In this document: positions 2,562 to 17,223 of the stretch, one piece after another
Position numbering within the stretch: the first letter of the stretch is position 1
How the letters are laid out: each line of letters starts with the position of its first letter
Assembly: GCA_030835135.1 (NCBI GenBank)
Contig: JAUQWO010000079.1
Coordinates: 62,001 to 126,000 of the forward strand
Origin: Bacteroidota bacterium
Lineage (GTDB): Bacteria > Bacteroidota > Ignavibacteria > UBA10030 > UBA6906
Direction of reading: 5' to 3'
Length of the DNA stretch: 64,000 nucleotides
Translations under genes and position numbers: made by a program
The notes under the pieces: generated by a model
The model's input: only the letters and a program-made list of their open reading frames with translations
What the model was told of the DNA's origin: nothing
The model's database searches: none

Positions 2562-3572
2562 CTACGGAAGGAAACCGGTGGGGGTCCTGATCCCGATGAC
2601 CTTGCCGGGGACGCGGATCTGCAATGAGTCCGGTGGGAAGGTGAGCACGGTGGCTGCGCGGATCACATCATCGGGCAATAGGGAATCCAGCAGAAGAACG
2701 ATGCGGACCGTGTCACCGGCGCGTGAGACCCTCGCCGGGATCTGCCCGGGCCGGGAGTCCGCATCGCGGCGGTACATCCCCAGTATGACCTCCTGATCCA
2801 CGGTGAACCGGGTGGAGATCTGTGTCCCTGTCTTCCGCGCTCCCTGCATTTGAGCGCCTCTCGTTTCGACCGCCGCCTCCCCGGCGAAGATCTCCAGCGT
2901 CCGGACAGCTTTGTCCTTTGTTTCATCCGCGCCGATGATGTTCCCCCAGACAATGAACTCGCTTGCTGCGTTCTTCGGCAGGGGATCCGCGGCCTGGGGA
3001 GTCTCCGGCACAGGGGTCGGAGCTTCGTCCCGCGCGTCGGGGGCAGCGGCCGGAGCCAGAGCAAAGGTCTCGCTTTCGCGTTTCGCCTGGCCGGCAGACT
3101 GTTCCTCCGCGACCGCTCCCTTCAGGGTGATGGGGGGCGGAGCAGTCTCCTTCGTGCGTGCATCTGCGAGCTCCCGTGCGACAGGAGCAGCGTCCGGCGC
3201 GATGAGGCTATCGGCGGATCCGGCGCTGATGACAGTGGTGGCGGAGGGTTCAGGTGACACGCGGAGCCATTGGTAAACGATCCCGGTTCCGGCGATCACG
3301 AGTACGACCGCAGCCGCGGCGACGATTTGCGTCCAGGGTATCGGTGTGCTCCGCGGAGAGCCTACCCGTGCTGCGATCCGGGCCTTGAGCGCGGCGCGGG
3401 CCCACGATCGTGTGCCGCGGGCAATGCGCAGTTCCATGTCGTAGGCCGCTCTGCATTGCGGACACACCGCGCAATGCGCCTCGACGGCAGCGTGGCGCTC
3501 GGGAGCGAGGTGTCCGCACGCCGCTTCCTCGAGAAGCTCCGGGGGAATGTGGTTCTGGTCAGCCGTGCTCAT
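2562..3572 (-). CDS. Anti-sigma factor with zinc-finger-like N-terminus
   Basis: A 336-residue single-pass membrane protein. The N-terminal 60 residues carry an H-x6-C-x2-C cluster (HAAVEAHCAVCPQC), characteristic of zinc anti-sigma domains that sequester ECF sigma factors. A transmembrane helix follows at about 83-103 (IVAAAAVVLVIAGTGIVY). The remaining roughly 230 residues are Pro/Ala/Glu-rich and presumably periplasmic, ending in a small beta-rich segment that resembles no family I recognise. The start overlaps the end of the upstream sigma gene by 14 bases, so the two are translationally coupled. The inferred role is to hold the sigma factor inactive until an envelope signal arrives; that signal is unknown. 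Confidence 0.85.
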   Translation of the reverse strand: MSTADQNHIPPELLEEAACGHLAPERHAAVEAHCAVCPQCRAAYDMELRIARGTRSWARAALKARIAARVGSPRSTPIPWTQIVAAAAVVLVIAGTGIVYQWLRVSPEPSATTVISAGSADSLIAPDAAPVARELADARTKETAPPPITLKGAVAEEQSAGQAKRESETFALAPAAAPDARDEAPTPVPETPQAADPLPKNAASEFIVWGNIIGADETKDKAVRTLEIFAGEAAVETRGAQMQGARKTGTQISTRFTVDQEVILGMYRRDADSRPGQIPARVSRAGDTVRIVLLLDSLLPDDVIRAATVLTFPPDSLQIRVPGKVIGIRTPTGFLP

Positions 3573-4143
3573 GGCCGTCCCGTGATGAGCGCAACAAACG
3601 TTTCAGTTGCTCTTTGCATTGATACTTCTTTGATTTGGCAGTAGCCGCATTGGCGAATCCGAGCGTGCGGGCGGCCTCGTCCATCGATGCCTCTTCCCAG
3701 TAGAAAAGGACGAGCAGCGCGCGGCAGGGATCACCGAGTGCATCGAGGGCCGCATGGACCGCACTCAGGTCCTCGTCTGATTCAAGTGCCTCCAGCGGCG
3801 AAGGATCCCCGTGAGGAACATCATGCTGCTGCAGGTCCGCCGGGATCTCCCGCCGGCTGCGCGCGAGATGCCGGAGCCAGATGTTCCTTGCCGTGGCATA
3901 CAGGAAGGTGCCAATGGCTGCTGTATGCTCGTAACGCCCGCTCCGGACACGCTCCCACAGGATGACCAGTGCATCCTGGAGGACGTCGGCAGCATCATCG
4001 AGTGTTCCGTTATTACGCATCACCAGTGCCGTAATGGGGCGCCGGTGGGCCGCATACAGGGCCTCCAGCGCCGATTCGTCGCCGCGACGGATGCCGTCCA
4101 GGATCCTGGCATCGGAATTCAGAAAAAGGAGCGGCGGCCTCAT
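3559..4143 (-). CDS. ECF-type RNA polymerase sigma factor
   Basis: A 194-residue sigma-70 family protein of the extracytoplasmic-function group. Region 2 is visible as DDAADVLQDALVILWERV, which contacts core polymerase and the -10 element. Region 4 is the C-terminal helix-turn-helix (CRALLVLFYWEEASMDEAARTLGF and following basic residues), which reads the -35 element. Regions 1 and 3 are absent, as expected for the group. It is co-transcribed with the overlapping anti-sigma gene and divergent from the DUF4139 gene, whose promoter it may serve (inference). The regulon is not visible in the window. Confidence 0.93.
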   Translation of the reverse strand: MRPPLLFLNSDARILDGIRRGDESALEALYAAHRRPITALVMRNNGTLDDAADVLQDALVILWERVRSGRYEHTAAIGTFLYATARNIWLRHLARSRREIPADLQQHDVPHGDPSPLEALESDEDLSAVHAALDALGDPCRALLVLFYWEEASMDEAARTLGFANAATAKSKKYQCKEQLKRLLRSSRDGHEHG

Positions 4144-4191
4144 TTACCTTTCACTGGTGAATGTCATGAACGGGTGTAAGGTGAATGGCAC

Positions 4192-4220
4192 AACATACGA
4201 AGTTCACCGGATGGTATCAA
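4192..4220 (-). promoter_or_regulatory. Putative promoter of the sigma/anti-sigma operon
   Basis: Read leftward, TTGATA (4220-4215), a 17-bp spacer and TATGTT (4197-4192) lie about 50 bases before the sigma start codon. The -10 region extends to TATGTTGT, close to the Bacteroidota TAnnTTTG form. Confidence 0.45.
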
Positions 4221-4243
4221 CCAGAACCACAGGAGAAGACATC

Positions 4244-5734
4244 ATGCGCACTGCCGTCCGTACCATCATCGCCGCCGCGGCCATTCTGCTTGCCGCAGTC
4301 CCATCGGCCGCCCAGCCGCTGCGGACCACCACGGCGGGAGACCGTACTTCCGTCGATCTCACGATCTACAATCAGAACCTCTCCCTTATCCGTGAGGAGC
4401 GCACGCTGAACCTCGTGCGCGGCATGAGCCGGGCAGTGCTGCCGCAGATCCCGACCACGATCGACGGGACCTCGTTGCACTTCCTGAGCCTCACCGATCC
4501 GGCCGCCGTGCGCGTCCTGGAGCAGAACTACCAGTACGACCTGGTGCACCAATCGAGGCTCCTCGAACGGTATCTCGGCAAAGAGATCGAATTCGTTCGC
4601 GTGAACCCCGAAACGAACAAGGAGTATACCGTGACCGGCCGGCTCCTTTCGACCGGCTACAGCGGGCAGTCCATGATGAGTGGCATGGTGGCGGAGATCA
4701 ATGGCAAGATCGAGGTCAATCCCGCCGGACGCCTCGTCCTGCCGAGCCTGCCCGAAGGACTGATCATCCGCCCCCAATTGGAATGGCTGGTCTCCAATAC
4801 CCGGGAGGGTACGCACCGCGCCGAGATCAGTTATCTGGCAGGCGGTCTGAGCTGGTCCAGCGACTATGTGGCGTTGCTGAACGCGGAGGATACGAGGCTC
4901 GATCTGACGGGATGGGTCACGTTGACGAACAACTCCGGCACGTCGTTCGCGAACGCCGGGTTGAAGCTGGTGGCAGGTGATGTGAATGTTGTCCAGGAAG
5001 AATTCGCAGGACGGGTGCGCGCGCAGAAGACCATGATGGCCGAAGCCGCTGATGCAGCGCCGCAATTCCAGCAGACCGAGCTGTTCGAGTACAAGCTCTA
5101 CACCCTGCAGCGGAAGACCGACATCCGGGACAATGAGACCAAACAGGTGGAACTGATCGCGGCGAAGAACGTTCCTGCCCGCAAGATGTTCATCTACGAT
5201 GGTCTCGGCGATCAGTGGCGGTACTGGTATAACAACTATTCCTACCGCTCGCAGGGGAGTTTCGGGCAGTCATCCAATCCGAAGGTCGGTGTCTACATGA
5301 CCATCAAGAACGAGGAGAAGGGTGGCCTGGGCATTCCGTTGCCGAAGGGGAAGGTGCGTGTGTATAAGCGTGATGCGGATGGAAAGGAACAGTTCATCGG
5401 CGAGGACAGGATCGACCATACCCCGAAGGACGAGGAGATCCGGCTGTATCTTGGCAACGCATTCGATATCGTGGGTGAACGCGCACAGAAGGACTTCAAG
5501 ACGGTGGCCAGCGGCCATGTGGTCGAGGAGACGTTCGAGATCAAGATCCGCAATCACAAGAACGAAGCCGTTGAGGTGCAGGTGTATGAACATCCCTGGC
5601 GCTGGAGCCAGTGGGAAGTGGTGAGTGCGAGCAACGAATGGGAAAAGGTTGACCAGTCCACGCTCCGCTTCCCCGTGAAGCTGGGCAAGGACGGCGAGAA
5701 GGTGGTTCGGTATACGGTGCGCTATACCTGGTAG
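4244..5734 (+). CDS. Secreted DUF4139-domain protein
   Basis: A 496-residue protein with a clear signal peptide (MRTAVRTIIAAAAILLAAVPSAAQ). The mature part matches the DUF4139 layout: an opening strand on 'YNQNLSLIREERTLNL', a conserved segment around LPQIPTTIDGTSL, and a C-terminal beta-rich domain in which VRVYKRDADGKEQFIGEDRIDHT and the EETFEIKIRNHKNEAVEVQV stretch are recognisable. The biochemical function of the family is not established. ATG 4244 is chosen because AGGAGAAG lies six bases upstream and the signal peptide begins exactly there; 94 upstream in-frame codons overlap the divergent sigma gene and are not coding. Divergence from the ECF sigma pair suggests control by it. Confidence 0.85.
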   Translation: MRTAVRTIIAAAAILLAAVPSAAQPLRTTTAGDRTSVDLTIYNQNLSLIREERTLNLVRGMSRAVLPQIPTTIDGTSLHFLSLTDPAAVRVLEQNYQYDLVHQSRLLERYLGKEIEFVRVNPETNKEYTVTGRLLSTGYSGQSMMSGMVAEINGKIEVNPAGRLVLPSLPEGLIIRPQLEWLVSNTREGTHRAEISYLAGGLSWSSDYVALLNAEDTRLDLTGWVTLTNNSGTSFANAGLKLVAGDVNVVQEEFAGRVRAQKTMMAEAADAAPQFQQTELFEYKLYTLQRKTDIRDNETKQVELIAAKNVPARKMFIYDGLGDQWRYWYNNYSYRSQGSFGQSSNPKVGVYMTIKNEEKGGLGIPLPKGKVRVYKRDADGKEQFIGEDRIDHTPKDEEIRLYLGNAFDIVGERAQKDFKTVASGHVVEETFEIKIRNHKNEAVEVQVYEHPWRWSQWEVVSASNEWEKVDQSTLRFPVKLGKDGEKVVRYTVRYTW

Positions 5735-5847: not shown

Positions 5848-7224
5848 CTAGTTCACCCTGAACGGTATCGTCAACCACTTCACCGCCGGCACGGAACCAG
5901 TCATCCCCGGCGAGAACGTGGACCGGAGGATCGCTGTCACGATCGGCTGGTTGAACGCGGGATTGGTGGATTTTGCGATCATGGTCTTGACCGGCTTTCC
6001 CGCCTGATCGATCTGCACCATGACGACCACTTCGCCCGAGGGCATGGCCTGTTGTTCGGTCGTGAACGAGGGTTGCACGAGGTCCACGATGCGCGGATCG
6101 CTGTCCGCCCTGGCCACGTCTGTCTGCACCTGCTGATTGACCGGGGCGATCTCCGCTGACGTGTTCGATGTCACGGTCTGTGCCGTGGAAGTCTGCAACT
6201 GCGCGGTCTCCGGCGGCACTGAATTCTGCACCGTCACGGGGTTCTCCGTGGCAGGTACAGGCGCCGGATCCGGGTTCTGCACGGGAGCACTTGCCTCGTG
6301 AAGATCTCCGGTCGTCTGCGGTGTGTTCACATCGGGCTTCACCGGTCTCTCTGAAGCGATACTCTGTTCTTCACTGCGCGCCAGCGACGCACTGTCGTCG
6401 GCAGCAGAGAGGATCGTCACCAATCCCGTACCTCCCACGAGTGTGGCGAGCAGGACCGAGAAGAGCCACCATTTCTTTCCACCCCTCCGGCCGTGCGCGG
6501 AATCCGAGGCCTCGAGCACTCCACCGGCTTCCGCGAAAGCCAGGGATGCTGACGGTGTGTGGGCCGGTGGTGCGGGGATCGAAGGCGCGGGCACCCATGC
6601 GGTGTCGGCGGCCTGGACCTCAACGATGCGTTCTTCCGGACGGGGGATCGGTGGAGCGGACGGGGCCACTTCTTCGGCGGCCGACGCGACCCCTGCCCGT
6701 TGCTGGAGTTCGACGAGCTGGCGGATGGTCCGCTCGTATTCAAGGGCGGTCTTGTCATCCGGCGCAATGATCTTCACGCGGCGGATCTCCACGAGCGCGC
6801 TGCCGTACGCACCCTTCTTCAGGTATTCGTCGGCGTGTTGGAAGTACTGCTCCTTCAGCTGTGACCGCGCAGCCTCACGGTCGACACGGTCCGGTGCCGG
6901 ACGCGGCGGTGGAGGCGGTGCGGCGACGGGCGTTGCCGGCACGCCGGAACGGACGGCCTGGACCGCACCGTGGATCAGGCCGGGCAACGAATCGAGGAGT
7001 TCCTTCTTCTGTGCTTCGCTCGGGTCGGTATCGCGCGGCAGGACGAGCAGCCGTTCGAGCTGCTTCTCCAGCGCGACGAAAAAGGTGGTCTGGGGATAGT
7101 GTGCCTTGATCTTCCGCAGCCGGATCAGGGCATCGGCGAACTGGCCACCTTCTGCCATCGCCTGGATCTCATAGACCTGTTCTGCCGCCAGGCCCTGCTG
7201 GGATGATGTCGGTCCGCTGCTCAT
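5848..7224 (-). CDS. TonB-like energy transducer with cytosolic TPR domain
   Basis: A 458-residue protein of unusual build. Residues 1-180 hold two TPR-like helical hairpins (about 15-60 and 118-172) joined by Pro-rich linkers; a single transmembrane helix follows at about 252-274 (WWLFSVLLATLVGGTGLVTI). A Pro/Thr/Gln-rich periplasmic linker spans 280-375, and the last 80 residues fit the TonB C-terminal fold (SGEVVVMVQIDQAGKPVKT ... TIPFRVN). Ordinary TonB proteins have only a few residues before the membrane helix; here about 250 precede it. The ATGA overlap with the upstream TPR gene implies coupling. Inferred role: driving outer-membrane receptors, with the cytosolic domain acting as a docking or sensing module. 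The TonB-like C-terminus is fairly clear; the function of the N-domain is unknown. Confidence 0.75.
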   Translation of the reverse strand: MSSGPTSSQQGLAAEQVYEIQAMAEGGQFADALIRLRKIKAHYPQTTFFVALEKQLERLLVLPRDTDPSEAQKKELLDSLPGLIHGAVQAVRSGVPATPVAAPPPPPRPAPDRVDREAARSQLKEQYFQHADEYLKKGAYGSALVEIRRVKIIAPDDKTALEYERTIRQLVELQQRAGVASAAEEVAPSAPPIPRPEERIVEVQAADTAWVPAPSIPAPPAHTPSASLAFAEAGGVLEASDSAHGRRGGKKWWLFSVLLATLVGGTGLVTILSAADDSASLARSEEQSIASERPVKPDVNTPQTTGDLHEASAPVQNPDPAPVPATENPVTVQNSVPPETAQLQTSTAQTVTSNTSAEIAPVNQQVQTDVARADSDPRIVDLVQPSFTTEQQAMPSGEVVVMVQIDQAGKPVKTMIAKSTNPAFNQPIVTAILRSTFSPGMTGSVPAVKWLTIPFRVN

Positions 7225-8345
7225 TCTCCGTTCGCCACTTTGTCATAGTGATAGATGAGTTTCAGGGGAGTGTTCGCCGATTGCTGATGATGGCGGAGCT
7301 CCTGCTGACGGATCTTGATCTCAGCCCGCTTGAGGTCCGTGTTCGTCGGGTCGAGGACATAGGCCTTTGCCAGTCCGTCCAGCGCACGCGTGAAATCGCC
7401 GCTCCGAGCGAACTCCTCTGCCGCCAGGATCTGCAGCCGGATCAGCCGGGCGGTCTCGGCGTTCGTCCGCGGGTCGGCATGTTCGCGTGCCGACGTATTC
7501 TTCCGTTTCCAGATCTCCTCTTCGAGGGCATGCAGCGACTGCGCCGCCGGATCGATCAGCTGGCCGAGAGCGATCTCGGTGAGTGCCTCATCGAACGCTG
7601 CCGCCGTCATGAGCTCACGCGCACGCGCGAGATGATGCGCCAGCCGCCCGAGTATCGCATCCTCCGCCAGCTTGTCCTGCTCGATGCGGTGGCTGGCGGC
7701 CTCGAGGGCCGTCTGCTGCATGTCCGACAACAACCTGCTGTAGTTGATCAACCGCTCACACTCGAGGAGATCGCGGTCGGCCGGATCGAGCACGAAGCCG
7801 CGCGCCACGAGCTGCATCGCTTCCATGAACTCGCCGCGTGCCGCCAGGTCACAGGCTTCTTCGCAGTAGGCCTGGATCGTGGACCGGACAACGGCATAGT
7901 GCGTGCCCGTGCCTGTGGGGGTTGAGGGAGCGCTGACCGCCGCGCTGATCTGCTCTTCAAGCGCGGTGATGTCGCCGTTCGTCGGGTCGAGCTGACGTGC
8001 TTCGCCGAGGATCGCAAGCGCCCCGCTGAAATCGCTGTTCGAGAGTGCGTCGTATGCCTTGCTCAGGAGACCAACGATTTCAGCGAGGGGCATCGCCGGA
8101 ACTGCTGGCGGTGCCGGAGTCTTTGTGACCGCGGCCGCGGGAAGAGGGGGAGGTGCTGCGGAGCCGCCTGCATCGGGAGGCATCAACGCTTTCACCCGCT
8201 CTTCGTACGCTTCCGCATAGCGGTTCTCGGGATTCTCTGCGCGGGCCTTCTGGATGAGAGCGAGTGCGCCGGCGAGGTTCCCCTCACGCACGCACTTGTC
8301 CGCCAGCTTAAGGAACATCGTATGTGGTGCGCCCGGTCTTTCCAT
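7221..8345 (-). CDS. Cytosolic TPR-repeat protein
   Basis: A 374-residue protein made almost entirely of TPR-type helical pairs, at about 13-55, 90-135, 158-200, 235-280 and 305-350. Each repeat carries the same 'GEFxEAxxxxARGFxLDPxxxDLxxxE' spacing. There is no signal peptide and no membrane helix, so it should be cytosolic. An Ala/Pro linker (58-85) separates repeat 1. It lies between two membrane-anchored TPR proteins and overlaps the TonB-like gene by 4 bases, so it is probably a soluble partner of their cytosolic domains (inference). AGGA is placed eight bases before ATG 8345. No enzymatic motif is seen. Confidence 0.75.
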   Translation of the reverse strand: MERPGAPHTMFLKLADKCVREGNLAGALALIQKARAENPENRYAEAYEERVKALMPPDAGGSAAPPPLPAAAVTKTPAPPAVPAMPLAEIVGLLSKAYDALSNSDFSGALAILGEARQLDPTNGDITALEEQISAAVSAPSTPTGTGTHYAVVRSTIQAYCEEACDLAARGEFMEAMQLVARGFVLDPADRDLLECERLINYSRLLSDMQQTALEAASHRIEQDKLAEDAILGRLAHHLARARELMTAAAFDEALTEIALGQLIDPAAQSLHALEEEIWKRKNTSAREHADPRTNAETARLIRLQILAAEEFARSGDFTRALDGLAKAYVLDPTNTDLKRAEIKIRQQELRHHQQSANTPLKLIYHYDKVANGE

Positions 8346-8569
8346 GGTCTTTGTCCTGCGTCACAGGGTACAAAGGGCATGCCATGGCAACAGATCGGAG
8401 TTTCTCCGCAAGCACCTACGAATTCGCCACTCGTTCGGCGATGGAGTGAGGGAAAAAGGGGAAAAGTGCGGGTGATGAAGGGACACTGGTAACACCGGAC
8501 CCCCCGAATCAGGCTGCGGGGAGGGGTCGGTGGAAGCTTCTACAAATTGCCATGCTGTTATTGCACCCC

Positions 8570-8591
8570 GCCGGTGACGCACGTCACCGGC
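8570..8591. terminator. Hairpin just after the membrane TPR gene; rest of the 251-bp gap empty
   Basis: GCCGGTGAC (8570-8578) pairs perfectly with GTCACCGGC (8583-8591) around a 4-base loop, starting five bases beyond the stop codon of the leftward gene that ends at 8597. No U-tract follows. It could be a processing or attenuation stem that partly separates the two halves of the leftward operon. The remaining gap (8346-8569) holds no ORF and no convincing promoter. Confidence 0.5.
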
Positions 8592-8596
8592 ATCTC

Positions 8597-9448
8597 TCAA
8601 GGCGCTACATCATGGGCCGACGAGTCCACACGGGCAGTATCCGGCGTTGTGGCGGGAGGGATCTTGTACACCGGCTCGTCCGCCTCCTCCGCGGGGATCG
8701 CCTGCTCCTCGGCCGGGGTGATCTTGATCGGCTGGGGCTGTTCGCGCTTCCAGAAGTAGTAGAATGCAAAGGCAAGGAGTGCGATCGTTGCGACGATCGC
8801 GATACGGAGCGGCCATACTGTCCGTTTCTCCTCCGGGGGCGGCGGGGGAGCCGGCTGCCCGACCGGTTCCGCGGGCTTGCGGACCGCGCCGTTCTCCAAT
8901 CCGCTTTCATCGAAGACCAGCGTCTTCCTCCTGCTGAGTTCGAGCATCTGCAGCACCTTCAATTCGAACTCCCGTGCAAACCGATCGCGGTCGTCGATGA
9001 TGAACACGCGCCTGATCTCGGAAAGGGCCTTGTCGTACTCCTTCTTCAGCACATAGGAATGCGCACGTTGCAGGTACTGGTTCTTGAGCCACTGGCGTGC
9101 TGCGCGCACCTGTTCACGCTGCTCGGGAGCCGGTTCCGGCTGACCCGCCGTCTCCGGGGCCGGTGTTGGCGGAGCTTCCGCGGCGGTCGCATTTGCCACG
9201 ATCCCGGCGAGCGAGTCGATGATATCCTTCCGCTGGTCGTCGGTCAGCGTCCCTGATGCCAGATGCTCCTGGATCTGTTCGATCTGCCGTTCGAATGCGA
9301 GAATGAAGACGTTGCTGGGATCGAGCCCCCGTGCCTTGCGTATCGCCGTGAGAGCTTCCTGGATCGCTCCGGAACCCGCGTGGTCGCGCGCTTCCCCGAG
9401 AAGCCGGCGAACGAGCGCCTGTGCGTGGGCTTTGTCGTCGTTAGTCAT
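8597..9448 (-). CDS. Membrane-anchored TPR protein, paralogue of the TonB-like protein
   Basis: A 283-residue protein whose first 175 residues align along their length with the TonB-like protein at 5848-7224: the same first hairpin (EALTAIRKARGLDPSNVFIL against DALIRLRKIKAHYPQTTFFV), the same middle helix (QRKDIIDSLAG against QKKELLDSLPG) and the same second hairpin (LKNQYLQRAHSYVLKKEYDK against LKEQYFQHADEYLKKGAYGS). A membrane helix lies at about 211-232, followed by only 50 Pro/Glu-rich residues with no TonB fold. ATG 9448 overlaps the last bases of the GH31 gene (stop at 9441-9443), so the two are coupled. Longer in-frame sequence upstream lies inside GH31 and is rejected. Likely a partner or regulator of the TonB-like protein; the function is unproven. 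Confidence 0.75.
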   Translation of the reverse strand: MTNDDKAHAQALVRRLLGEARDHAGSGAIQEALTAIRKARGLDPSNVFILAFERQIEQIQEHLASGTLTDDQRKDIIDSLAGIVANATAAEAPPTPAPETAGQPEPAPEQREQVRAARQWLKNQYLQRAHSYVLKKEYDKALSEIRRVFIIDDRDRFAREFELKVLQMLELSRRKTLVFDESGLENGAVRKPAEPVGQPAPPPPPEEKRTVWPLRIAIVATIALLAFAFYYFWKREQPQPIKITPAEEQAIPAEEADEPVYKIPPATTPDTARVDSSAHDVAP

Positions 9449-11918
9449 GGTCGATCTCGATTCGTTGCGCTGTCCGCGCGTCCGTGCACCGCACCGTGAT
9501 CTCACGGGCTGAAGCGTCATACGCCCAGCCGGCAACACCGGGAACCGGCACGGCGGCGAGCTGGCCCACCACCGTCCCGTTGATATGCACTGCCGTCGGC
9601 GGCTTGTCCGCATCGACGATCCGTATCGCCAGTGTGCGGGTGGGCGGGAGGTATGAACCCTCCGCCGCGCCGATATCGATGATGAGGCGGGGGCCGATCC
9701 GCTGTTGTGCGTGCGTGCGCCGCAGCAGAACGCCCTTCTGGAAATCGAAGGATATCCCGTCGTCCTCGTAGTACGACTGTGTGGAGGTCCCGTTCGCCCG
9801 CAACGGATACACGGTGAGCGTCAGCGGGTCGATCGGTTGCTCGCCGGTGTGTTGCATCACCTGTTGAGACGGAAGGATGGCACCTTCGCGCACGTAGAGC
9901 GGGATGCGTTCCAGCGGTGCGGCCACCGTGGTGTCGCGGCCCCCCGTAACCGGCACGCCCGTCCAGAGATCGTACCAGGTTCCGTGAGGGAATCGCACCT
10001 CACGTGAACGGGCGTCCGCGGTGAGGACCGGCGCGACGAGGATATCACGTCCGAACAGGAAGCTGGACGATTCCTGCAGGAAGCGTCCGTCCGATGGATA
10101 CTCCAGGAGAAGCGGCCGCATGGCAGGGAGGCCGGTGGCGCTGGCTTCGGCCATGACGTTGTACATGTACGGGAGCAGACGATACCGCAGCTGGAGGCTT
10201 GCTCGGTTGATCGCGGTGAACGCCTCACCGTACTCCCATGGCTCCTTGTTCTTCTCGTTGATCACGGAGTGGGCGCGCATCAGCGGGGTGAAGACGCCGA
10301 GCTGCATCCACCGCGCGAACAGTTCACCGGATGGGTAGCCGATGAATCCGCCGATGTCGCTGCCGCAGAACGGCTGACCGGACAGGCCCCAGTTGAGACA
10401 CATCGTGAGGGCGAGGGAGAGGTGCTCCCACGAGGAGACGTTGTCTCCCGTCCACCCCGCGCTGTACCGCTGTCCACCCGCATACGAGGCACGGGTGAGG
10501 ACGAACGGGCGTTCGGCCGGATTATGGCGGAGGGCGCCTTCGTACGATGCCCGCGTCATCTGCATCCCGTAGACGTTGTGGTTCCTGGAATGCGGGGTGC
10601 GCAGCCCGCCGTCGTTGTGGATCACGTTCAGGTCGACGGTTTTCGTGGGCACATTGAAGACCGATGGCTCGTTCATGTCATTCCAGAATCCGCGCACGCC
10701 GGAGCGCACGAGATCCTCCATCTGATCGCCCCACCACCGCCGCCCACCCTCGGAGGAGAAGTCCGGGAATGCACACCGGCCCGGCCAGACATCCCCGTAG
10801 AACACCCGTCCGTCGGGGTAGGTGAGGAAGTGCTTTCCGGCAAGTCCGGTGGTGAATGCCGCATAGGTCGAATCGGCCTTGATGCCGGGGTCAAGGATGA
10901 CGGCAACGTGGAAGCCGTCCGCGGTGAGGTCCCGGAGCAACTGCTGGGGCGCGGGAAAATTCTTCGCGCTCCAGGTGAAGACGCGGTACCCTTCCATGTA
11001 GTCGATGTCGAGGTAGATCACATCACAGGGCATGGATCGTGAACGGAAACCCCGGGCGATCTCGCGGACCCGTGTGTCCGGCGCATAGCTCCACCGGCAC
11101 TGCTGGTAGCCGAGCGCCCAGCGCGGCGGCAGGGGCATGCGCCCGACGAGGGCCGTGAAGCGCTCGATCACCGTACGCGGGGCGGGGCCGGCGATGACAT
11201 AGTAATTGAGTTCTCCCCCCTCGGCGCCGAAGGCATACTGATCGCGGGATTCCTTGCCCATGTCGAAGGACGACCAGTACGTGTTGTCGAAGAAGACCCC
11301 GTGCGCTTTCCCGCCATCGACCGCCATGAAGAACGGGATCGATTGATACAACGGATCGGTGGTGGAGCCATACGCCGGGATGTCGGAATTCCACATCGTG
11401 ACCGCGCTGTTGCGCTTGTCCAGCGTTCCCGATTTCTCGCCAAGCCCGTAATAATGAGCGTCGGGAGGCATGCTCTGCCACACGCGCACGGAGGCCGTTG
11501 CCCCGGCCGTCCAGGCCATCCCCTTGTCCGGATGATCCTGTGTCAGGACCCTGCCGGTGGAATCGGTGATGGTGATCCGCACGGGCTTCTTGGTGATCGT
11601 CACCCGCAGTGCAGGTGTGGTGAGCGTGAGCGCCCCCGGGGCGTCGGCGAATTCGGTTGCCGGTGCCGGCCACCGTGCGGGGATCACGGCATGCGACACG
11701 TCAGGGGGGAGTTTCCCTGATGGTGATGGTGGGATGCAGCGGACGCGCGCGACATGGTCGCTGAGCAGGCTGACCTCGACCGTGGCGCCGGTTGCTTTCA
11801 GGATAACGGTGTTGCCCCCGCGTACGACGTACGAATCGGCGTTGCCGATGCTCTGCCATCCGGCCTCGAGCCGGAGTGCCATGAGGAGAAGGAGGGAACA
11901 CAACACAAGCCGTCGCAT
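9441..11918 (-). CDS. Exported GH31 alpha-glucosidase-family hydrolase
   Basis: An 825-residue glycoside hydrolase of family 31, which cleaves terminal alpha-glucosidic (or alpha-xylosidic) bonds with retention. A signal peptide (MRRLVLCSLLLLMALRLEAG) puts it in the periplasm or outside. The N-terminal beta-sandwich is followed by the barrel with nucleophile Asp414 in WNDMNEPSVF and acid/base Asp492 in WTGDNVSSWEH; the C-terminal beta-domains are present, so it is full length. ATG 11918 has AGGA at a proper distance; an ATG five codons earlier has none. It lies 22 bases after the MalK-like ATPase gene, so uptake and hydrolysis are co-expressed. Context argues for maltodextrin or starch oligomers as substrate, but GH31 specificity cannot be fixed by motif alone. 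Confidence 0.93.
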   Translation of the reverse strand: MRRLVLCSLLLLMALRLEAGWQSIGNADSYVVRGGNTVILKATGATVEVSLLSDHVARVRCIPPSPSGKLPPDVSHAVIPARWPAPATEFADAPGALTLTTPALRVTITKKPVRITITDSTGRVLTQDHPDKGMAWTAGATASVRVWQSMPPDAHYYGLGEKSGTLDKRNSAVTMWNSDIPAYGSTTDPLYQSIPFFMAVDGGKAHGVFFDNTYWSSFDMGKESRDQYAFGAEGGELNYYVIAGPAPRTVIERFTALVGRMPLPPRWALGYQQCRWSYAPDTRVREIARGFRSRSMPCDVIYLDIDYMEGYRVFTWSAKNFPAPQQLLRDLTADGFHVAVILDPGIKADSTYAAFTTGLAGKHFLTYPDGRVFYGDVWPGRCAFPDFSSEGGRRWWGDQMEDLVRSGVRGFWNDMNEPSVFNVPTKTVDLNVIHNDGGLRTPHSRNHNVYGMQMTRASYEGALRHNPAERPFVLTRASYAGGQRYSAGWTGDNVSSWEHLSLALTMCLNWGLSGQPFCGSDIGGFIGYPSGELFARWMQLGVFTPLMRAHSVINEKNKEPWEYGEAFTAINRASLQLRYRLLPYMYNVMAEASATGLPAMRPLLLEYPSDGRFLQESSSFLFGRDILVAPVLTADARSREVRFPHGTWYDLWTGVPVTGGRDTTVAAPLERIPLYVREGAILPSQQVMQHTGEQPIDPLTLTVYPLRANGTSTQSYYEDDGISFDFQKGVLLRRTHAQQRIGPRLIIDIGAAEGSYLPPTRTLAIRIVDADKPPTAVHINGTVVGQLAAVPVPGVAGWAYDASAREITVRCTDARTAQRIEIDHD

Positions 11919-11940: not shown

Positions 11941-13044
11941 TCAGAGTGCCTGCTCGGTTGCGGCGTCGAACAGATGAATGCGGGAGAGATCGAACAGGAG
12001 CTCGCACGGTTTGCCGACCTCGGGTGCCTGCTCCGAGGCGATCCGGGCGACGAGGTGCGAAGCCGACCCGGACGAGAAGTAGATGAAGATCTCGTTGCCG
12101 ACCGGTTCAACGACCTCGACCGTGGCGGGTACCGTTGCCAGTGCGCCGACGCCTGAGGGCGGGTGAAGGTAGATATGTTCGGGGCGGATGCCGAGGGTCA
12201 CGTTCCCGTGCTGGCCCTGTCCCACGCGGGCGGCGAGCTCGGACGGGAGCGTGAGATGCGTCCACGCCGTCGTTTGCGTGAACGCGAGAGCGCCGTTTCG
12301 GGAGAGGGATCCCGGGATGAAGTTCATCGTCGGGCTGCCGATGAACCCTGCCACGAATTTATTGACGGGCCGGTGATAGATCGCGAGTGGCGCATCGACC
12401 TGCTGGACCACCCCGTCGCGCATGACGACGATGCGGTCGCCCATGGACATGGCCTCGATCTGGTCGTGGGTGACGTAGATCATGGTGGTCTTCAGGCGGT
12501 GATGCAGCCGTGAGATCTCGGTGCGCATCTGGACGCGCAGGTTCGCGTCGAGGTTGCTCAATGGTTCGTCGAAGAGGAATACCTTGGGTTGGCGGACGAT
12601 CGCGCGTCCGAGTGCGACACGCTGGCGTTGGCCACCGGAGAGGGCTTTGGGTTTGCGGTCGAGGTACGACTCGATCCCGAGGATCTTCGCGGCCTCGCGC
12701 ACGCGCTGGTCGATCTCCGCCTTCGGATACTTGCGGAGCTTGAGTCCGAAGGCCATGTTCTCGTACACGCTCATGTGTGGATAGAGCGCGTAGTTCTGGA
12801 ACACCATGGCGATGTCCCGGTCCTTGGGTGCCACATCGTTGACCACGCGGCCATCGATGCTGATGGTACCGCCGGAGATCTCTTCCAGACCGGCGATCAT
12901 GCGGAGGACGGTGGACTTCCCGCAGCCTGATGGGCCGACGAGGACGACGAATTCCTGATCGCGGATCGTGGTGGTAACTTCGCGGACAGCTGTGACCTTG
13001 CCTTCATAGACCTTGGACACCGAATCGAGCTTTACTTCGGCCAT
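11941..13044 (-). CDS. MalK/UgpC/MsmK-type sugar ABC transporter ATPase
   Basis: A 367-residue ATPase subunit of a carbohydrate ABC importer (CUT1 type). Visible motifs are Walker A GPSGCGKST, Q-loop VFQNYALYPH, signature LSGGQRQR, Walker B VFLFDEPLSNLD and the switch His in YVTHDQIEA. After residue 240 comes the OB-fold regulatory extension (ending in VELLF-like CELLFDLSRIHLFD), diagnostic of the MalK group. No permease gene adjoins it; the only matching MalEFG-like genes in the window lie 29 kb away (41974-44999), so it probably energises that importer in trans, as MsmK-type shared ATPases do. First gene of the leftward glucan operon, driven by the promoter at 13102-13130. Confidence 0.95.
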   Translation of the reverse strand: MAEVKLDSVSKVYEGKVTAVREVTTTIRDQEFVVLVGPSGCGKSTVLRMIAGLEEISGGTISIDGRVVNDVAPKDRDIAMVFQNYALYPHMSVYENMAFGLKLRKYPKAEIDQRVREAAKILGIESYLDRKPKALSGGQRQRVALGRAIVRQPKVFLFDEPLSNLDANLRVQMRTEISRLHHRLKTTMIYVTHDQIEAMSMGDRIVVMRDGVVQQVDAPLAIYHRPVNKFVAGFIGSPTMNFIPGSLSRNGALAFTQTTAWTHLTLPSELAARVGQGQHGNVTLGIRPEHIYLHPPSGVGALATVPATVEVVEPVGNEIFIYFSSGSASHLVARIASEQAPEVGKPCELLFDLSRIHLFDAATEQAL

Positions 13045-13230: not shown

Positions 13231-13244
13231 TGGAAGCGCTTCCA
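13231..13244. promoter_or_regulatory. Perfect palindromic LacI-family operator
   Basis: TGGAAGCGCTTCCA is a perfect 14-bp palindrome with the central CG typical of LacI/GalR-family operators. It follows directly on the -10 element of the regulator's own promoter, which suggests autorepression. Confidence 0.75.
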
Positions 13245-13299
13245 GAGTTACCCCTGGGGTCCTCCCCGAAACCGATGTGTCACAGCAATGCTCTCCTCG

Positions 13300-14373
13300 A
13301 TGGGTGTTACGATCTATGATCTGGCCCGAGAAGCCGGCGTCGGTATCGGGACCGTGTCGCGGTGTCTGAATAACCACCCGCACGTCTCTCCCGCTACACG
13401 GGCCCGGGTCCTCTCCATCGTGAAGCGGCTCAATTATCAGCCGCATGCCGGAGCCCAGCGCCTCGCCTCCCGCCGCACCAACACGATCTCCGTCATCATC
13501 CCGTCGTTCACTAACTACTTCTACGTGCAGACCCTGCAGGGTGTGCAGGACGTTGCAGCGGACATCGGGATGGACCTCATGCTGTACGGTGTCAGTCATA
13601 CGGCACAGGTCGAACACTACCTCCGCCGCTCGCTCCACCGCGGCCACGTGGATGGCGTGCTGTTCTTCAGTATGATCCTGCCGGAGAGCTTTGTCGCGCG
13701 CTTCCAGCAGATGCGACTCCCCATGGTCCTCGTCGATGCCTATCACCCGGCGTTCGATTCGATCCGGGTCCAGAACAACGAAGGCGGCTACAGCGCCACG
13801 CATCACCTGCTTTCGCTCGGGCACCGGGATATTGCGATGATCAATGCGAGCCTCGACACCCAGCCGGCAAGGGAGCGGATGGACGGCTACCGGCGTGCGC
13901 TGGAAGGTGCGGGCATCCCGTTCCGCGAGGACCGCGTCATCATCTCGTCCGCGGGGAAGAATGACGGGTTCAATCGGGACGCCGGCCGCGATTCCATGCG
14001 TCGGCTGCTCACGACCACGTCGGGACCCGGCCGTCCGACCGCGGTCTTCATCGCCAGCGACGTCCAGGCCATCGGTGCATTGGAGGGAGCGCGTGCGGAA
14101 GGCGTGCGCATCCCGGAAGACCTCGCGGTGGTCTCGTTCGATGATATCGAACTTGCGCAGTACGCCGAGCTGACCACGATGCGGCAGCCGATGTATGAGA
14201 TCGGCCGGCTCGCGATGGAAAAATTGATCGCACGCATGAAAGATGCCGATGCCGCTCCCACGCTGTCGTCGTTCGTACCCGACCTCATCGTGAGGCGATC
14301 GTGCGGGGCCGCGGCCCATGCGCTTGCGGGCATTCCGGTCCCGTCCCAACCCGCACCGGTCCAGCATTCGTAA
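13300..14373 (+). CDS. LacI/GalR-family transcriptional regulator
   Basis: A 357-residue repressor. The N-terminal helix-turn-helix plus hinge is clear (TIYDLAREAGVGIGTVSRCLNN, then VLSIVKRLNYQPHAGAQRLAS), and the rest is a periplasmic-binding-protein-like effector domain (ISVIIPSFTNYFYVQTLQG ... AVVSFDDIELAQYAELTTMRQP). Start: ATG 13300 puts the HTH at residue 4 as usual; ATG 13288 is an equal alternative and neither has a Shine-Dalgarno sequence. It is divergent from the ATPase/GH31 operon and directly upstream of the TonB receptor gene, so it most likely represses alpha-glucan genes and is released by a maltose-type sugar (inference). The two TGGAA-N4-TTCC sites in the gap are the probable targets. 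Confidence 0.93.
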   Translation: MGVTIYDLAREAGVGIGTVSRCLNNHPHVSPATRARVLSIVKRLNYQPHAGAQRLASRRTNTISVIIPSFTNYFYVQTLQGVQDVAADIGMDLMLYGVSHTAQVEHYLRRSLHRGHVDGVLFFSMILPESFVARFQQMRLPMVLVDAYHPAFDSIRVQNNEGGYSATHHLLSLGHRDIAMINASLDTQPARERMDGYRRALEGAGIPFREDRVIISSAGKNDGFNRDAGRDSMRRLLTTTSGPGRPTAVFIASDVQAIGALEGARAEGVRIPEDLAVVSFDDIELAQYAELTTMRQPMYEIGRLAMEKLIARMKDADAAPTLSSFVPDLIVRRSCGAAAHALAGIPVPSQPAPVQHS

Positions 14374-14394: not shown

Positions 14395-17223
14395 ATGAAC
14401 CTCCGTACCACGCTACTCCTCATCCTCGCCCTCGGTATCGCCGTGTCCGCCTTCGCTGGCAACACGGGGAAGATCGCGGGAATCGCGAAGGACGCGCAGA
14501 CAGGGGAGACCCTCGTCGGCGTGAACGTCGTCATCGAGGGGACGTCGATGGGCGCTGCCACGAACCTCGACGGCCAGTATGTCATCCTGAACGTGCCTCC
14601 GGGCAAATATACGCTGATCGCGTCCGCCGTGGGCTTCAATAAGAAGACCATCACGAACGTGTCGGTCTCCATCGACCTCACCACGACGATCGACTTCACG
14701 ATATCGTCGCAGGTCGTGGATGTTGGCGAGGAAGTGGTCGTCACGGCCGAGCGTCCGCTCGTCCAGCGGGACCTCACGGCGAAGACCGCGGTGGTCGGCG
14801 GCGACCAGATCGCGGCCCTGCCGGTGACCGAGGTGGCGCAGGTGCTGCAACTGCAGGCGGGCTTCGTCGCCGGCAGCCTGCGTGGCGGCCGCAAGGGCGA
14901 GGTCGCGTACTGGATCGACGGTGTGCCCGTGACCGACGGCTTCAACGGCTCGCAGATCGTCGAGGTGAACAAGAACCTCGTGCAGGAACTCCAGCTCGTC
15001 TCCGGCGCCTTCAATGCCGAATACGGACAGGCGATGTCCGGCATCGTCAATATCGCCACCAAGGAAGGGAGCCCGCGGTTCGCAGGCGGGGCGGGGGCGT
15101 ACATCGGACAGTACGTCACGACGTACAATGGCGATTCGTTGTTCCCGGGCCTCGGGTCATTCAAGCCCACCGCGATCCGGAATTTCGAAGCGAACTTGAG
15201 CGGGCCGGTCATCGGCGAAGACCTGACCTTCTTCATCAATGGCCGCTACATCTACTTCGACGGGTGGCGCAAGGGATACCGCCGGTACACGCCGTCCAAC
15301 ATCTCCTATACGGATGACATCACCCGTCAGTTCACGATGTACCGCGATGCATCAGGCCGCGGCGACAGCGCGGTGGTGCCCATGAACTGGAGCGAACGGT
15401 ACTACGGCCAGGGCAAGCTCACCTGGCGCATCTCGCCCGTGATCAAGCTCAACGCGAACTACATCTATGATTACAACAAGTCCCAGGCGTACGACCGGAA
15501 CTACTTCTACAATCCGGATGGCAAGGGCGTGGATATCAACGACAGCCATACCCTCATCATGCAATTGTCGCACACGCTCAGTTCTTCCACGTTCTATACC
15601 CTCGGCGCGTCATGGTTCCAGCGCGGATCGAAATACCGCCTGTACGATCTGACGTACGAGCCGGCGACCGACGGGTCGGGCGATCTCATCGAAGCACTCA
15701 ATCCCTCGGGTCCTCATTATGTGCATCCGAAACTGTTCCTGACGGACGATCCGTACAGCTTCTATACCGGCGGTACCGACATGGGCCGGTTCCGCCGCAC
15801 GACAACGACGAAGCTGGTGAAGCTGGATGTCTCCTCGCAGCTCGATTTCTCGAATCTGGTGAAGGCCGGCGCCGAGATCCGGTTGAACAATGTGTTCTAC
15901 GAGAACATCACGCTCCAGCCCATCGCAGAGCAGTCGGACATCAATCTGGCGACCGCGAACCCCTACATCCGGACGCGCATCCTCCCGCTCTCCTCGCTCT
16001 ATCATGACATGTACAATCACAGTCCGAAGGAGCTCTCGGCGTACATCCAGGACAAGATGGAGTTCAAGGACTTCATCCTGAATATCGGTATCCGTTTCGA
16101 CTACTTCGATCCCGATGGCTACGTCCTGAACGATGAGCACCCCGATGTGAATGATCCGTTGCACTCCACGTACACGGTGGACGATCCCAACATCTACAGC
16201 CCCATCAAGCCCGAGAATCGCGCGAAGTCGCTTGCCGAACGCATGACCTACTGGTACCGCAAGGCCAAGGCGAAGTGGCAGTTCAGCCCGCGCATCGGCG
16301 GCTCCTTCCCGATCACGGCGGAAGGCATCGTGCACTTCTCCTACGGGCACTTCTTCCAGGTGCCGCGGTTCGAACGGCTCTATGAGAACCCCGACTTCAA
16401 GATCGGATTCGGGACGGGGAATCAGGGCGTGGTCGGGAATGCAGACCTGGAACCGGAACAGACGATCAACGCCGAGATCGGCGTGCAGCAGCAGCTGGCG
16501 CCGGACCTCTCGGTGGACGTGACCGCGTACCTGCGTGACATCCGCGGCCTCACGGGCACGCGGGCAGACGAGATCATCGTCTTCGGCGGGAGCGCCAAGT
16601 ACAGCAAGTATGTGAACAGCGATTTCGGGTTTGTGAAGGGCATCGTGCTCACGTTGAACAAGCGATTCGGTGGCGGGTTCTCGGCCACGGTCGATTACAC
16701 GTATCAGGTGGCCAAGGGGAGTGCCTCGGACCCGCAGGAAGCCCGGAACGCGGTCGCGGGCGGTTCATTGCCGGAGGTCCAGCTCACGCCGCTCGGGTGG
16801 GACCAGCGTCACACGCTCAACATGACCGCATCGTATGCCGCACCGCACTGGGGTGTGAGCGCCATCGGTCAGTATGGTAGCGGCACGCCGTACACGCCGC
16901 GCCGTGCAGCGGACATCACGACACTCCTCACGAACAGCCAGTTGAAACCCGGCTTCTTCAACATTGACCTCCGTGCCTATTATGAGATCAAGGTCGATCC
17001 GTTCAACGTCGTGATCTTTGCACGTGCGTTCAATCTGCTGGACATCCGGAACGAAACGGACGTGTTCGATGACACCGGCCGTGCAGGCTTCACCACGGAT
17101 GAGGCCCGGGTCAGTCTGACGAATCCGCGCCAGCGCATCAATTCACTCGACGAGTGGTACCGGCGTCCGCAGAACTACTCGGAGCCCCGTCGTCTCGAAT
17201 TCGGCATGAATCTGGAGTTCTAG
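14395..17223 (+). CDS. TonB-dependent outer-membrane receptor
   Basis: A 942-residue outer-membrane receptor. Signal peptide at 1-20, then a carboxypeptidase-regulatory-like beta-sandwich (about 24-110: GKIAGIAKDAQTGETLVGVN ... PPGKYTLIASAVGF), a plug domain (about 115-230, including YWIDGVPVTDGF and SGIVNIATKEGS), and a 22-strand-type barrel ending in the aromatic terminus RRLEFGMNLEF. This is the SusC-like arrangement, but no SusD-type lipoprotein follows; the next genes encode a large secreted protein and a PorV-like protein. It would import oligosaccharides using TonB energy; the TonB-like protein at 5848 is the obvious local candidate (inference). AGGAG precedes the start. The 22-base gap to the regulator gene may allow read-through. 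Confidence 0.92.
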   Translation: MNLRTTLLLILALGIAVSAFAGNTGKIAGIAKDAQTGETLVGVNVVIEGTSMGAATNLDGQYVILNVPPGKYTLIASAVGFNKKTITNVSVSIDLTTTIDFTISSQVVDVGEEVVVTAERPLVQRDLTAKTAVVGGDQIAALPVTEVAQVLQLQAGFVAGSLRGGRKGEVAYWIDGVPVTDGFNGSQIVEVNKNLVQELQLVSGAFNAEYGQAMSGIVNIATKEGSPRFAGGAGAYIGQYVTTYNGDSLFPGLGSFKPTAIRNFEANLSGPVIGEDLTFFINGRYIYFDGWRKGYRRYTPSNISYTDDITRQFTMYRDASGRGDSAVVPMNWSERYYGQGKLTWRISPVIKLNANYIYDYNKSQAYDRNYFYNPDGKGVDINDSHTLIMQLSHTLSSSTFYTLGASWFQRGSKYRLYDLTYEPATDGSGDLIEALNPSGPHYVHPKLFLTDDPYSFYTGGTDMGRFRRTTTTKLVKLDVSSQLDFSNLVKAGAEIRLNNVFYENITLQPIAEQSDINLATANPYIRTRILPLSSLYHDMYNHSPKELSAYIQDKMEFKDFILNIGIRFDYFDPDGYVLNDEHPDVNDPLHSTYTVDDPNIYSPIKPENRAKSLAERMTYWYRKAKAKWQFSPRIGGSFPITAEGIVHFSYGHFFQVPRFERLYENPDFKIGFGTGNQGVVGNADLEPEQTINAEIGVQQQLAPDLSVDVTAYLRDIRGLTGTRADEIIVFGGSAKYSKYVNSDFGFVKGIVLTLNKRFGGGFSATVDYTYQVAKGSASDPQEARNAVAGGSLPEVQLTPLGWDQRHTLNMTASYAAPHWGVSAIGQYGSGTPYTPRRAADITTLLTNSQLKPGFFNIDLRAYYEIKVDPFNVVIFARAFNLLDIRNETDVFDDTGRAGFTTDEARVSLTNPRQRINSLDEWYRRPQNYSEPRRLEFGMNLEF

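Follow-up and report, generated by a model that had tools for sequence, protein, structure and literature searches.

A tetratricopeptide-anchored TonB-type protein paired with a tail-bearing soluble partner in Ignavibacteria

We analyzed a 64,000-nucleotide stretch (the window) of contig JAUQWO010000079.1, from a bacterium of the class Ignavibacteria (assembly GCA_030835135.1), whose minus strand carries three consecutive genes, in the order C, B, A, after an operon encoding a MalK-type ATPase and a GH31 glycosidase. B and A constitute an undescribed, lineage-specific variant of the TonB-type machinery, set apart by the tetratricopeptide repeat (TPR) anchor of A and by its soluble partner B, which bears a conserved tail. 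Searches of the available papers for a TPR-TonB fusion, or for TonB/TPR in Ignavibacteria, retrieved nothing relevant. The features on which this finding rests are listed below with the evidence for each (AF2, AlphaFold2; pLDDT, predicted local distance difference test).

5848..7224, minus strand: gene A, 458 aa, TPR domain, transmembrane helix, Pro-rich linker and TonB_C (Pfam, AF2, Foldseek, transmembrane comparison)
5848..6096, minus strand: predicted TonB C-terminal domain of A, residues about 377-458 (AF2 and Foldseek; sub-threshold in Pfam/NCBIfam)
7221..8345, minus strand: gene B, 374 aa, soluble (no transmembrane helix), with repeats of a TPR hairpin and a third helix (Pfam, AF2)
7224..7268, minus strand: C-terminal tail of B, PLKLIYHYDKVANGE, conserved and predicted to be unstructured; candidate peptide for docking on the A/C TPR domain (alignment, tail-partner association, pLDDT)
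8370..8384, minus strand: sigma-54-type (-24/-12) promoter-like element, TGGCATGCCCTTTGT, 24 nt upstream of B (single window match; conserved in family f1)
8597..9448, minus strand: gene C, 283 aa, TPR domain, transmembrane helix and short periplasmic tail, without TonB_C (BLASTP, TPR-domain tree)

The cytosolic part of A comprises two three-helix TPR-like units (residues about 10-176) followed by a basic stretch, with no FHA domain detected in Pfam or NCBIfam. A single transmembrane helix (about 253-275) then leads into a Pro/Thr-rich periplasmic linker (about 277-375), disordered in the AF2 model. Scores of the C-terminal domain fall below threshold in Pfam (TonB_2, E=7.5e-4; TonB_C, E=6e-3) and miss both curated cut-offs (TonB_C, 17.4 vs 24.6 bits; tonB_Cterm, 22.1 vs 27.1 bits), the latter being cleared by the homologue of A in family f9 (39.3 bits). 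By fold, the assignment is firm on the predicted model, as an earlier note made from the letters of this stretch had anticipated: pLDDT is 83-90 in most blocks, the best PDB matches in Foldseek are the TonB C-domains 1u07, 6fip, 6i97 and 2gsk (1u07, E 1.8e-4, probability 1.00; 6i97, TMt 0.77), and a family profile retrieves TonB chains from the PDB (E=1.8e-9). Conservation along the protein is highest in TPR unit 2 (45% vs 37% for TonB_C). Wherever TonB_C is kept (families f1, f6, f9 and f13), its mean identity of 37% equals that of TPR unit 1, which argues that it is under selection there. In a tree that rests on few columns and has long branches (tool warning), the A-type TonB_C domains are set apart by one branch (99/96) from those of standard TonBs in this class. 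The AF2 models were built from four sequences each of A and B, and domain packing was therefore not interpreted.

Repeats of the type seen in A and C also make up B, as evidenced by Pfam matches above cut-off (TPR_14 and TPR_19) and by profile-profile comparison of the A/C domain with B (probability 98.5%). The earlier reading of three consecutive, related helical-repeat genes thus holds. The AF2 model of B has a mean pLDDT of 79, falling below 50 at residues 358-374, an unstructured tail with the consensus L-K-L-I/V-Y at its C-terminal end. An A/C gene lies directly downstream of B in 25 cases, 23 of which have the tail, vs none of eight B-type genes that have no partner after them (p 3e-6, with no correction for phylogeny). 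In family f5, the first of two B proteins lacks the tail, and the second, which adjoins the partner, has it. This f5 partner (160 aa) consists of the TPR domain alone, without transmembrane helix or TonB_C; hence the tail, if it docks on the partner, should dock on the TPR domain. Judging from these sequence associations, the tail of B probably docks on the TPR domain of A/C. Two variants of B were also seen: L038:392-2398, located after an A-type gene, encodes a B-like protein with its own C-terminal transmembrane helix and no docking tail, and L083:6841-8940 (f13) a B-like TPR protein that adjoins a gene resembling rodA by eye, with no A partner beside it.

The N-terminal 177 residues of A and C align with 34% identity (BLASTP E=6e-22), in agreement with the roughly 175 shared residues noticed beforehand, and A alone has the periplasmic TonB-type C-domain, as also proposed. 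In f1 genera g2, g3 and g7, a full protein with TPR domain, transmembrane helix and TonB_C adjoins GH31 or the ATPase, and in the TPR-domain tree C groups with these GH31/ATPase-adjacent proteins (99/95), apart from the A of the window. On this phylogeny, C is the orthologue of the full-length proteins of other genera and has therefore, as a TonB-type protein, lost its TonB_C. The same orthology rules out C as a recent duplicate of its neighbor A. The earlier label of C as a membrane TPR paralogue was right about its TPR and transmembrane layout; a TonB-type protein without its C-domain describes it better. A decayed TonB_C remnant was sought in the gap between C and B, and none was found. C matched the model of SgmX, a type IV pilus TPR protein, weakly (E=0.005, far below cut-off).

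The trio is linked in relatives as well, the order ABC-GH31-C-B-A being found in four genomes of two genera (G000, G001, G010 and G016). The deeper conserved unit is the B-A pair: several families of the class have it, for the most part without sugar genes nearby. Within the class, 22/245 genomes encode the A/C TPR domain, as do 6/345 in a sample of the phylum, all six from the window's own order. Among the 245 genomes of the class, 18 have both B and the TPR domain, 4 the domain only (the B contig is cut in two of these), 2 only B and 221 neither (Fisher p 1.6e-21). The neighbors of the pair differ between families. In f6 there are no sugar genes beside it. In two f9 genomes, B-A follows the genes of a FecI-like extracytoplasmic function (ECF) sigma factor, of FecR and of a TonB-dependent receptor whose STN match is weak (E=0.01); the whole run (L080:2972-11431 and L081:2333-10473) is a candidate cell-surface-signaling locus. 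In f5, two B proteins and then the 160-residue TPR protein follow histidine kinases and response regulators in an operon-like run; f5 loci of this kind are L048:7539-10552, L049 and L090. For f1 genus g11, the partner carries a transmembrane helix and no TonB_C, so that two lineages retain a B-partner pair without this domain. Linkage to a receptor and a sigma/anti-sigma pair is evident in f9 and was not seen in f5 and f6; in f1, a receptor and an ECF pair lie within about 10 kb, outside the operon.

The surroundings of the three genes in the window are as follows.

9441..11900, minus strand: GH31 glycosidase gene (Pfam-scanned stretch), overlapping the start of C
11941..13044, minus strand: MalK-type sugar ATP-binding cassette (ABC) ATPase, head of the ABC-GH31-C operon (Pfam)
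13231..13244, no strand assigned: perfect palindrome of the LacI-family operator type, TGGAAGCGCTTCCA, between the divergent LacI and ABC genes (sequence match)
13294..14373, plus strand: LacI-family regulator (Pfam)
14395..17223, plus strand: TonB-dependent receptor with CarboxypepD_reg domain (Pfam)

The set therefore follows GH31 and a sugar ATPase gene, as first described, with LacI and receptor genes as further neighbors. The C start codon overlaps the GH31 stop at 9441, 251 bases separate the end of C from the start of B, and the B stop overlaps the A start by 4 bases (ATGA). The pattern TGGCRY-N4-TTTGY, with sigma-54 spacing, has one match in the window, at 8384-8370, where TGGC/TTGY stand at -24/-12 spacing and are conserved across genera. 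Such an element lies ahead of 13/18 B/A operon starts in f1 vs 0/294 other f1 open reading frames, and in a held-out set of ten operons, from which the pattern had not been derived, five had it (5/10 vs 0/294, p 1.2e-8). The genome encodes RpoN (DNA-binding domain), and no sigma-70 promoter or terminator was found in the C-B gap. The LacI-type palindrome precedes the ATPase-GH31-C operon, with no match before B-A; only the perfect match at 13231 was counted, matches with up to three mismatches being as frequent as chance. On the plus strand, a promoter-like pair, TTGACT / TACCTT, lies immediately upstream of this palindrome. Since a sigma-54-type element precedes B and a LacI palindrome the ATPase-GH31-C operon, B-A and C probably answer to different signals. 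Positions 2562-5734 hold a DUF4139 gene, an ECF sigma factor gene and an anti-sigma-like gene, and similar-looking genes adjoin A/C genes in other f1 genera. No RNA families were found in the first 22 kb of the window.

These data lend little support to the link with the sugar importer suggested in the earlier note: the GH31-adjacent copy in f1 belongs to the C lineage, B-A has a sigma-54-like promoter of its own, and the pair has other neighbors in f5, f6 and f9. Its occurrence without sugar genes in other families rules out a trio-specific link to the importer as the general function. Coupling to ExbB/ExbD, an interaction that the note proposed to test, is not supported either. TonB and TolA of Escherichia coli contact ExbB/TolQ through the Ser and His of a transmembrane SHLS motif, the His being essential (PMC12215075). 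A mid-helix His is present in 0/28 A-type transmembrane helices vs 12/17 standard TonBs of the same class. No ExbB/ExbD gene is adjacent to the B-A pair. Further TonB genes occur in the genome, and one of these adjoins ExbB and an ExbD-like gene. A shares with standard TonB proteins working with ExbB/ExbD (PF03544, TIGR01352) the C-terminal fold, a single N-in transmembrane helix and a proline-rich linker, and differs from them in its cytosolic domain of ~250 residues, the missing SHLS His, its own TonB_C branch and the sub-threshold family scores. A thus probably does not work as a standard ExbBD-driven TonB; we infer that it is a TonB-type contact module serving a different purpose, with the f9 locus keeping a role dedicated to a receptor alive.

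From the computed architecture, TonB fold, conservation, orthology, tail-partner association and promoter-like element we infer a function in which tail docking, an outer partner, ExbBD independence and competition by C would combine. A would have its anchor in the inner membrane and offer, on the cytosolic side, a TPR domain on which B may dock through the L-K-L-I/V-Y tail. The TonB-type domain could span the long proline-rich linker to reach an outer-membrane or periplasmic partner, so that the state or abundance of B would be tied to contact in the periplasm or at the outer membrane, or the reverse. ExbB/ExbD would probably not work A in the usual way, and in this lineage B-A would be expressed from the sigma-54-type promoter. 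C, presumably made with the sugar operon, would keep the docking domain and the anchor without the outer contact, and because of this could compete for B as an inert site at the membrane. We favor this two-component trans-envelope adaptor, with a TPR-anchored, TonB-type A recruited by B and probably not driven by ExbBD, only tentatively, at a little less than an even chance. A more detailed version appears fairly unlikely: a lineage-specific signaling or scaffolding device in which a sigma-54-controlled TPR protein docks by its C-terminal peptide on an ExbBD-independent TPR-TonB-like protein, with a swappable TonB output and C as a competitor linked to the sugar operon.

Several observations weigh against the adaptor. 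The tail is missing in two B genes that adjoin A (L052_3 and L087_7); the tail-partner table ignores phylogeny, and the B genes adjoining A might be no more than orthologues. The comparison of transmembrane His residues is soft, as five standard-looking TonBs of f6 also lack a mid-helix His. A occurs without B in some genomes (G004, G008 and others), and the f9 pair, directly after a FecI-FecR-receptor cluster, suits an ordinary receptor-energizing TonB. This last point belongs to a different explanation, unlikely on balance, in which A is the dedicated, ExbB/ExbD-driven TonB of the neighboring TonB-dependent receptor, as HasB is of HasR, and the TPR domain and B exert cytosolic control over transport. 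It would account for the TonB fold of A, for the receptor at 14395 and the sugar genes nearby, conserved in f1, and for the f9 gene order in two genomes with its weak STN match. HasB of Serratia, a known dedicated TonB paralogue, is likewise an extra TonB beside the standard one in its genome, with a sigma/anti-sigma pair of its own at the locus, as in f9 (PMC9008036). However, HasB has TonB topology, thus neither a cytosolic TPR domain nor a TPR partner, and works with ExbB (PMC9008036), whereas the ExbB-contacting His is missing in all A transmembrane helices and ExbB/ExbD are not beside the pair. Moreover, no receptor gene was recognized among the inspected neighbors in f6 and f5, and the f5 pair persists after losing both transmembrane helix and TonB_C.

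That loss, in a row of histidine kinase and response regulator genes that looks like an operon, and the missing TonB_C in C and in f1 genus g11 could instead point to a purely cytosolic TPR scaffold of B and the A/C TPR domain, for instance in signaling, with the transmembrane helix and TonB_C as an occasional tether to membrane or cell wall; this is quite unlikely, given the selection on TonB_C in the four families that keep it. Of similarly low probability is a GltG/GltJ-like role, with the cytosolic domain recruiting a soluble partner and a TolQR/AglRQS-type motor moving the TonB domain for surface attachment, motility or secretion. The sigma-54-type promoter and the weak SgmX match of C would fit it, but no motor or motility genes stand beside the pair in any family inspected, none recognizable as gliding or AglRQS motor genes being linked to it, and the cytosolic domain of A is a TPR rather than an FHA or GYF domain (zinc-ribbon and GYF presumably being the cytosolic domains of GltJ), its likeness to GltG having been compared by layout and TonB_C only. 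In the Myxococcus gliding proteins GltG (PglI)/GltJ (AgmX), GltG is likewise bitopic, with a cytosolic interaction domain, transmembrane helix, proline-rich region and TonB_C, has TPR proteins in the same cluster and binds the motor protein AglR (PMC3169522). It differs from A in having FHA instead of TPR, in its clustering with motor and outer-membrane gliding genes and in belonging to another phylum (PMC3169522). SjdR of Anabaena resembles A as a TonB-annotated membrane protein with a role thought to be other than transport, and is unlike it in being short, with no true TonB_C and no TPR (PMC8262864).

A cytoplasmic domain is generally missing from TonB proteins (PMC8262864), in line with the earlier remark that they usually have almost no cytosolic part, and for this reason the passage of cytosolic information to the outer membrane through TonB proteins is little explored. 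The B-A pair is a compact, testable case of it, with a proposed docking peptide, natural domain losses (C, f5 and f1 genus g11), a putative sigma-54 promoter and apparent independence of ExbB/ExbD.

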